Origin: Cytophagales bacterium
GTDB taxonomy: Bacteria; Bacteroidota; Bacteroidia; Cytophagales; CCMP332
Assembly: GCA_028282565.1 (NCBI GenBank)
Contig: JANQHS010000175.1
Location: 1 to 38,228 of the forward strand
Direction: 5' to 3'
Length of the DNA stretch: 38,228 nucleotides
In this document: piece by piece, positions 6,574 through 29,945 of the stretch
Layout of the letters: the number at the start of each line of letters is the position of its first letter
Numbering within the stretch: position 1 is the stretch's first letter
The notes under the pieces: generated by a model
What the model saw: only the letters and a program-made list of their open reading frames with translations
Database searches by the model: none
Told to the model about the DNA's origin: nothing
Translations under genes and position numbers: made by a program

Positions 6574-6604
6574 TTTGATAAAAACCAAAATCCCTCTACT
6601 TTTG
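6574..6604 (+). promoter_or_regulatory. Promoter of the tRNA-Tyr/Gly/Thr-tuf cluster
   Basis: TTTG (6574-6577), 19-nt spacer, TACTTTTG (6597-6604), matching Bacteroidota TTTG/N19/TAnnTTTG. Confidence 0.75.
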
Positions 6605-6653
6605 CAACTCCTTTTTCAAAACTGGCCTTTTTTGGCCGTTTTTGTGGGCTTTT

Positions 6654-6736
6654 GGGGAGATACTCAAGCGGTCAACGAGGACAGACTGTAAATCTGTTGG
6701 CGTAAGCCTTCGTAGGTTCGAATCCTGCTCTCCCCA
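6654..6736 (+). tRNA. tRNA-Tyr (GTA)
   Basis: Acceptor GGGGAGA/TCTCCCC, GTA anticodon in ACTGTAAAT context, long variable arm, GGTTCGAATCC T-arm. Confidence 0.93.
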
Positions 6737-6769
6737 CCGAAAGAGGAATTGGTCCTCGAGTTTTTTAAT

Positions 6770-6880: not shown

Positions 6881-6929
6881 GGGAATGAATTTTTAGCGAC
6901 CTGGTCGCGCCGTGCCTGCCAATAGGCAG

Positions 6930-6955
6930 GGGTTCGAGCCTCGTCTCCCGCTCAA
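6930..6955 (+). repeat. Partial duplication of the tRNA-Gly 3' end
   Basis: GGGTTCGAGCCTCGTCTCCCGCTCAA identical to 6820-6845 (26 nt, offset 110 bp). Confidence 0.9.
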
Positions 6956-8426: not shown

Positions 8427-8448
8427 CAGCTAGATACATCTAATTTTG
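8417..8448 (+). promoter_or_regulatory. Promoter of tRNA-Trp-secE-nusG-rplKAJL
   Basis: TTTG (8417-8420), 20-nt spacer, TAATTTTG (8441-8448). Confidence 0.7.
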
Positions 8449-8467
8449 CAGTCCTTTTTTTTGAGAG

Positions 8468-8540
8468 ACGGGTGTAGCTCAGCTGGTAGAGCAGTGGTCT
8501 CCAAAACCAAAGGTCGAGAGTTCGAATCTTTCCACCCGTG
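8468..8540 (+). tRNA. tRNA-Trp (CCA)
   Basis: Acceptor ACGGGTG/CACCCGT, anticodon loop CTCCAAA, T-arm AGTTCGAATCT. Confidence 0.93.
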
Positions 8541-8553
8541 CAAAAGGTAAGAA

Positions 8554-20049: not shown

Positions 20050-20080
20050 TTGGGAATTATCTACTATTTATCTAATTTTG
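20050..20080 (+). promoter_or_regulatory. Promoter of rpsL-rpsG-fusA-rpsJ
   Basis: TTG 20050-20052, 20-nt spacer, TAATTTTG 20073-20080. Confidence 0.65.
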
Positions 20081-20081
20081 C

Positions 20082-20101
20082 ACTCCCAAATTTTTGGGGG
20101 T
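20082..20101 (+). other. 5'-leader hairpin of the rpsL transcript
   Basis: ACTCCCAAATTTTTGGGGGT self-complementary, immediately downstream of the -7 box. Confidence 0.55.
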
Positions 20102-23481: not shown

Positions 23482-23512
23482 TTTGACTGCTAGGTAGAAA
23501 TTGCTACTTTTG
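23482..23512 (+). promoter_or_regulatory. Promoter of the rplC-led S10/spc operon
   Basis: TTTG 23482-23485, 19-nt spacer, TACTTTTG 23505-23512. Confidence 0.75.
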
Positions 23513-23525
23513 CAGTCCTTTTTTT

Positions 23526-23542
23526 CAGAGCAAAATGCTCTG
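23526..23542 (+). other. 5'-leader hairpin upstream of rplC
   Basis: CAGAGCA-AAA-TGCTCTG perfect 7-bp stem about 10 nt after the expected TSS. Confidence 0.55.
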
Positions 23543-23568: not shown

Positions 23569-24189
23569 ATGACAGGGCTAATTGGAAAAAAAATAGGAAT
23601 GACAAGCATTTTCACCGAACAGGGGAAAAATGTGGCTTGTACAGTACTTGAGGCGGGTCCTTGTGTGGTGACACAAATCAAAAATCAGGACTCTGACGGG
23701 TACAATGCTGTCCAAATTGGTCATGGCCCGAGGAGCGAGAAAAATGTCACCAGTGCATTGATGGGGCATTTCAAAAAGGCAGGGTCTGAGCCATTGACAG
23801 ATATGGTTGAGTTCAGGGACGTGGAAGGAGATTTCCAGTTGGGCCAGGAAGTGAAGATCGGCGATGTATTTGAGGAGGGGGAATTTGTTGATGTCGTTGG
23901 AGTCAGTAAGGGTAAAGGATTTCAGGGTGTCGTGAAGAGGCATGGATTTGCAGGGGTTGGAGATCAGACCCATGGTCAGCATAACCGACAAAGACACCCG
24001 GGTTCCATAGGTGGCGCCTCGTTTCCTGCCAGGGTTTTCAAAGGGATGAAAATGGCAGGGCGAACCGGCAACGAAAGAAAAACCGTTTTGAACCTCAAGG
24101 TTGTGAAGATCATTCCCGAAAAGAACTTGATGTTGGTGAGCGGCTCGGTACCAGGGGCCAGGAATTCAACGGTAATTATTGAGAAGTAA
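23569..24189 (+). CDS. rplC: 50S ribosomal protein L3
   Basis: [46 protein letters not shown]. Confidence 0.98.
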
Positions 24190-29915: not shown

Positions 29916-29945
29916 TAATTTTGCGCCTCGAAATTTTTGAGGGGC
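29916..29945 (+). promoter_or_regulatory. Candidate internal promoter and leader hairpin upstream of rpsH
   Basis: TAATTTTG 29916-29923, then GCCTCGAAATTTTTGAGGGGC hairpin; -33 element poor (TTG with 22-nt spacing). Confidence 0.5.

Follow-up and report, generated by a model that had tools for sequence, protein, structure and literature searches.

A question raised by this stretch of DNA is why promoters that serve ribosomal protein and tRNA genes should resemble one another past the point where the recognized promoter ends. Bacteroidota promoters for the primary sigma factor, sigma-ABfr, have a -33 element, TTTG, and a -7 element, TAnnTTTG; the window analysed here (38,228 nt, contig JANQHS010000175.1, from a host genome of 3.29 Mb in 472 contigs) has the -7 element in exact form at all five of the promoters considered. 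A first-pass annotation placed these promoters at 6597-6616, 8441-8462, 20073, 23505-23525 and 29916, where they are indeed found, and took three of them to be near-identical from the box through the start into a run of T. The features are listed below; all lie on the + strand, and the -7 box and T7 tract of rplC, as well as the tRNA-Trp, tRNA-Tyr and rpsL promoters, were read from the sequence.

6597..6616, +, promoter of the tRNA-Tyr operon: TACTTTTG CAACTCC T5, a one-base variant
6654..6738, +, tRNA-Tyr gene
8441..8462, +, promoter of tRNA-Trp/secE/nusG: TAATTTTG CAGTCC T8
8468..8541, +, tRNA-Trp gene, 5 nt 3' of the T-run
20073..20086, +, promoter of rpsL (str operon): TAATTTTG CACTCC
20082..20101, +, 5'-terminal stem-loop of the rpsL leader, predicted by folding; it starts in the C-rich start region and is gene-specific
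23482..23485, +, -33 element TTTG of the rplC promoter, 19 nt 5' of the -7 box (consensus TTTG/TAnnTTTG as given in PMC6847099)
23505..23512, +, -7 element TACTTTTG of the rplC (S10-spc operon) promoter
23513..23518, +, C-rich start region CAGTCC of the rplC promoter; predicted +1 at 23517 or 23518
23519..23525, +, T7 tract of rplC, the predicted initially transcribed sequence
23569..24189, +, rplC (L3), first gene of the operon; the cluster representative is Pfam Ribosomal_L3
29916..29929, +, internal promoter of rpsH, a variant: TAATTTTG CGCCTC, then a 5' stem-loop to about 29945

The shared start signature is real, but two points need amending: the tRNA-Tyr (GCAACTCC) and rpsH (GCGCCTC) sites are variants rather than exact copies, and the T-run is optional. 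The -33 TTTG, expected some 19-21 nt upstream, was checked at the rplC promoter only, and is present there at 19 nt.

A signature of translation genes

A loose search of the window alone, allowing two mismatches, is uninformative (7 sites found, 14 expected, thus not above chance); the question was therefore moved to whole genomes, and it is exact matches at that scale, not counts in the window, that provide the evidence for the motif. In the 3.29-Mb genome the motif TANNTTTGCANTCC (also given as TAnnTTTGCAnTCC) occurs at nine sites and the reversed pattern at none. Eight of the nine are promoters, preceding rpsA, tRNA-Trp/secE/nusG, rpsL, rplC, tRNA-Phe, rplU/rpmA, rimP/nusA and uppS, and seven of these eight lie upstream of translation genes; the ninth site is inside guaA. 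Extension of the motif by five T (TANNTTTGCANTCCTTTTT) leaves three sites, all at translation units: rpsA, tRNA-Trp/secE and rplC.

Relatives repeat the pattern. A near relative, the sister genome G002, has eight motif sites (two for the control), and G001, a complete genome of the same family, has 23, with none for the control. Two of the 23 are within genes, one is unassigned and 20 are intergenic. Fifteen of these 20 are of translation type: rpsF, rplC, rpsL, tRNA-Trp/secE, rplM, rpmH, rplU, rplS and rpsA, together with tRNA operons (Glu, Leu, Gly+Leu, Val, Asn and Gln). The remaining five sites belong to secA, glyA, uppS, and pdhA with a divergent DUF1573 gene. Other promoters of G001, namely TAHHTTTG promoters that lack the motif, drawn from evenly spaced parts amounting to 24% of the genome, stand before translation genes in 7 of 72 cases, against 15 of 20 for motif sites (odds ratio about 28, p about 3e-8, Fisher). 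The check proposed by the first-pass annotation, whether unrelated promoters carry the motif just as often, thus comes out in its favor. In each of the family's three genomes (L008, L232, L254), uppS, the gene for undecaprenyl diphosphate synthase, has a start motif of the translation type.

The order was covered by 148 genomes, and the T5 form was found at about 100 sites in 62 of them; the reversed control has no match, and a variant with CC changed to AA has five. When 86 of the T5 sites were examined, 68 preceded genes for tRNAs or ribosomal proteins (rplS, rplM, rplC, rplU, rpsA, rpmE, rpmH, rpsT, rpsL, rpsP and rplK), and 75 preceded translation genes in a wider sense, the extra seven being yceD, argS, mnmA or trigger factor (tig); the last 11 precede other, unidentified or cut-off genes. 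Representatives of the main downstream gene groups were checked against Pfam. A sample across the phylum, searched with no controls, is thinner: 30 of 297 genomes have the motif, before rpsA, rpsL, rplM, tRNA genes, miaB, rimO and an EttA-like gene.

Neither chance nor common ancestry of a few loci can have produced the pattern, given the outcome of the CC-to-AA control and how many unrelated gene families are involved.

One motif promoter (L284) precedes an ORF of 49 aa, rich in lysine and arginine (MSVTRLKRKDRKNKARANNR...), with no match in PDB and none near a cut-off in NCBIfam; judged by the company of genes that the motif keeps, it may encode a small ribosome-associated protein.

Stable RNA operons

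The set of marked genes goes beyond the one first proposed, as it includes rRNA operons. Both rRNA operons of the host genome, reached through contig ends (L159, L162), carry close variants of the motif: two contigs break off after the first 29 bases of 16S rRNA, and on both of them TACTTTTG CACTCGCTTTTTCGGGGGG (also given as TACTTTTGCACTCGCTTTTT) lies about 280 nt upstream of the 16S 5' end. One of the operons has a second promoter, TATCTTTG ATGCCCTTTTTT (also given as TATCTTTGATGCCCTTTTTT), 363 nt before the 16S box. G253, a more distant genome within the phylum, was reached by a phylum-wide match (L343), and two of its three tandem rRNA promoters read GCA[T/A]TCCTTTTT. The promoter blocks upstream of its 16S gene (G253:C121) are near-identical tandem repeats of about 115 nt, three in number; the third has drifted to TGTAACCCATTCC.

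The tRNA promoters of the host genome (n=12) were picked without regard to the motif and compared with background promoters. All 12 have C at -4, and 83% have C at +1, compared with 15% of the background. CC falls within -1..+3 in 10/12 (background 12/78; p=6e-6), YY occupies +1/+2 in 11/12 (background 30/78), and the GC content of -4..+2 is 0.75 for the 12 tRNA promoters, compared with 0.43 for 67 promoters of the background (p=2e-5). These contrasts in base composition are inflated, since the background set depends on crude ORF calling and contains false -7 boxes.

A side observation concerns the tRNA genes of the window: a copy of the final ~26 bases of tRNA-Gly (GGGTTCGAGCCTCGTCTCCCGCTCAA) lies some 110 nt downstream, at about 6929-6954, between tRNA-Gly and tRNA-Thr; it has no tRNA call and represents a partial tRNA duplication.

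Conserved core, T-run and start position

The first-pass annotation gave the T-run a central place, and here it did not hold up. rplC loci, fetched by protein similarity and thus an unbiased set, have CAnTCC at all 30 Cytophagales promoters and T5 at none. Among 36 motif sites of three near genomes, 21 have no T directly after TCC; even so, a longest run of at least four T in +3..+12 is found at 26 of 36 motif sites and at 5 of 69 background promoters. At rpsL, pyrimidines occupy the predicted +1/+2 in all 67 loci, from Cytophagales and Flavobacteriales alike. The conserved core is thus a G+C-rich, purine-poor start region, with the T-run as a common but optional extension. Of the earlier interpretation as a whole, three points stand: the sequence is selected, its place is the start region, and the genes it marks are those of translation. 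The T-run as its core is not supported.

In Flavobacteriales, rplC has another start (GACCCTGTTTTTTT; 12 of 50 loci with an exact -7 box), which counts against the discriminator account favored below. In twelve Flavobacteriaceae rplC promoters (L045-L089) the conserved start is mostly TATTTTTGACCCTGTTTTTTTG, likewise C-rich and then followed by a T-run.

Where transcription would begin can be estimated from relatives. In the published maps, most starts in Flavobacterium johnsoniae lie 4-5 nt past the -7 box (PMC6847099), and in F. psychrophilum the box, with its three sub-motifs SM1-3, spans -12 to -5 (PMC9723704). With such spacing the predicted +1 is one or other C of TCC and so lies upstream of the T-run, in line with the original assumption; the F. 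johnsoniae value gives the rplC position listed above. We found no mapped start of a Bacteroidota ribosomal protein or rRNA promoter in the literature searched, which was covered in part. Purines are reported at 86% of starts in Bacteroides thetaiotaomicron (PMC7366714), and a promoter class with no purine in its start window would therefore be unusual.

A proposed growth-linked discriminator and its alternatives

The best way to understand the motif, at a probability of about 0.6, is as the Bacteroidota counterpart of the G+C-rich discriminator: an extension of the core promoter through which transcription units for translation are put under growth control. Past TAnnTTTG, position -4 is C, -3 is A or G and -2 can be any base; Y, C and C follow over the predicted start, and this C-rich, purine-poor YCC stretch is often followed by a T-tract. 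The extension marks promoters for rRNA, tRNA, ribosomal proteins and associated genes in the order, and more thinly across the phylum. A G+C-rich, purine-free start might alter open-complex stability, the use of the initiating nucleotide, or promoter escape relative to ordinary promoters, and the altered initiation would in turn co-regulate ribosome components with growth. In Escherichia coli, promoters that respond to ppGpp/DksA have a G+C-rich discriminator (PMC7822876). The host genome encodes a RelA_SpoT domain protein (PF04607) and a zf-dskA_traR protein (PF01258), with the DksA/TraR zinc finger; it is these genes, and the position of the G+C-rich stretch in the same place as in E. coli, that favor a growth-linked discriminator, and we infer that growth, or the ppGpp/NTP state, acts through the motif. 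The operons for rRNA and tRNA are untranslated and yet have the motif, so its most likely point of action is the initiation of transcription, and not translation or the fate of the mRNA.

A different account needs no regulation at all: the motif would simply be the optimal discriminator and initial sequence for maximal sigma-ABfr output and escape, met at translation genes because these are the most expressed. We regard this as possible but doubtful. Near variants do occur at strong housekeeping genes whose names were read from sequence, atpD (GCAGCCG, GCAGCCGATTTTT, L165), prs (GCATCCCTTTTTT, L172) and one resembling methylmalonyl-CoA mutase (GCATCCCTTTTT, L171); the motif itself is found at uppS, glyA, secA and pdhA; and C is also the commonest base at -4 of ordinary promoters (45%), so that the motif in part sharpens a general consensus. 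Strength alone, however, should mark more of the abundant genes outside translation, whereas some 75-87% of sites belong to translation genes, with rRNA, tRNA and ribosomal protein operons alike. Strength and regulation are inseparable by sequence alone. A second alternative looks to the initiating nucleotide, and we think it unlikely: RNA polymerase would begin with CTP or UTP, and transcription of ribosome genes would follow the pools of these two. The idea arises because T-run sites offer no purine for about ten bases from -1. The published spacing, which puts +1 on one of two C in a phylum where B. thetaiotaomicron starts with purine so regularly, speaks for it, as does the excess of YY at +1/+2 of the host tRNA promoters; but with a shorter spacing the start could still fall on A-3 or G-2, and many sites have purines from +3 on. 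Model bacteria rely on purine starts and on ATP/GTP. Were this account to apply, an outcome to which we give little credence, the whole translation apparatus of Bacteroidota would be on pyrimidine-initiated promoters, with ribosome synthesis gated by CTP/UTP at the first bond.

Two further proposals fare worse. Reiterative transcription (slippage) on the T-run in response to UTP, as at E. coli pyrBI, codBA and upp, would draw on the tracts of 5-8 T just past the predicted start at a subset of sites and on the enrichment of T-runs in +3..+12 given above; slippage at starts is common in Streptococcus agalactiae (PMC4448216). A tract that is absent, as T5, from the 30 Cytophagales rplC orthologues compared, and that does not directly follow TCC at most motif sites of the three near genomes, makes this very unlikely. 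A signal at the RNA level is just as hard to credit, whether as a structured leader or as a bacterial 5'TOP, a 5' mark affecting mRNA stability, S1 binding or translation. Operons for rRNA and for tRNA only carry the motif or near versions of it, which are thus not restricted to translated mRNAs, which weakens the 5' oligopyrimidine mark first suggested. An Rfam search of the window returned tRNAs only and no leader, and no conserved structure including the motif, of the kind known for ribosomal protein leaders in Rfam, was found. In favor of structure are the rpsL leaders, which in Flavobacteriales and Cytophagales have a 5'-terminal stem-loop formed from the C-rich region, with a mean MFE of -7.2 against -2.1 for shuffled sequences and p at most 0.05 in 80%.

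A general 5' hairpin of all motif leaders was rejected: pairing between CANTCC and the leader, in 69 non-redundant sites folded, is no better than in dinucleotide shuffles (p=0.56). The hairpin is strong only at rpsL and at the single rpsH leader examined, partial at rpsA and trpT, and weak or absent at rplU, rplM, rpmE and rpsT. RNAalifold predicted no consensus pairs for 22 rpsL leaders, a result that probably reflects stems offset by one base.

Individual leaders have features of their own. In those of 61 distinct rpsL promoters (L011-L089, L237, L244, L315) the C-run of the start region forms the 5' arm of the 5'-terminal stem-loop, and the arm sequences differ between Flavobacteriales and Cytophagales. 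The leader of the internal rpsH promoter (29924-29945) has a 5' stem-loop too. That of rplC has a strong predicted hairpin, CAGAGC AAAAT GCUCUG, right after the T-run (23526-23542), and in G002 the same place reads CAGGGC AAUCU GCCCC.

If the growth-linked discriminator is the right reading, it bears on a matter about which little is known: how Bacteroidota, a major phylum that inhabits guts, soils and seas and whose sigma factor is unusual, match ribosome synthesis to growth. A short sequence common to rRNA, tRNA and ribosomal protein promoters predicts a co-regulated set and names the bases to mutate; it suggests the start region, rather than a DNA-binding regulator, as the carrier of control; and it could serve as a ready part for growth-linked promoters in Bacteroidota.

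Relation to known systems

The promoters described here are sigma-ABfr promoters: they have the same -7 box, rplC shares the TTTG 19 nt upstream, and the predicted start is 4-5 nt past the box. They differ in what follows. The published consensus, as given in the available parts of PMC6847099, PMC9723704 and PMC7366714, ends at the G of TAnnTTTG, whereas here it is extended by C(A/G)nYCC(T-run) and tied to ribosome genes. The -7 box is thus already known; the start-region extension that marks ribosome-synthesis promoters appears new, since neither it nor its link to rRNA, tRNA and ribosomal protein genes was found described in the literature searched, of which coverage was partial.

Eukaryotic 5'TOP mRNAs, which begin with C followed by pyrimidines, come from the same set of translation genes, and the predicted 5' end here is likewise C, then pyrimidines. 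The bacterial motif, in contrast, is on rRNA and tRNA operons too, and involves no cap and no known reader protein; the resemblance is likely an analogy only.

With pyrBI, codBA and upp, where reiterative transcription depends on UTP, a subset of the present sites shares a T-tract in the initially transcribed sequence; the genes here are those of translation rather than of pyrimidine metabolism, and the tract is not conserved between orthologues. At pyrC and pyrD of E. coli, CTP-dependent start-site switching involves consecutive C in the start region, as are found here, and the rpsL 5' hairpin begins at the C-run; unlike in pyrC/pyrD, there is no SD to sequester, and the genes are different ones.

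The closest parallel is with the rRNA and other stringent promoters of E. coli, controlled by ppGpp/DksA. Both are G+C-rich between the -7/-10 box and the start, both serve rRNA, tRNA and ribosomal protein operons, and DksA-like and RelA/SpoT proteins are encoded here as well. The present promoters differ from those of E. coli in being C/pyrimidine-rich through +2, often with a T-tract beyond, and in offering, at the T-run sites, no purine start.
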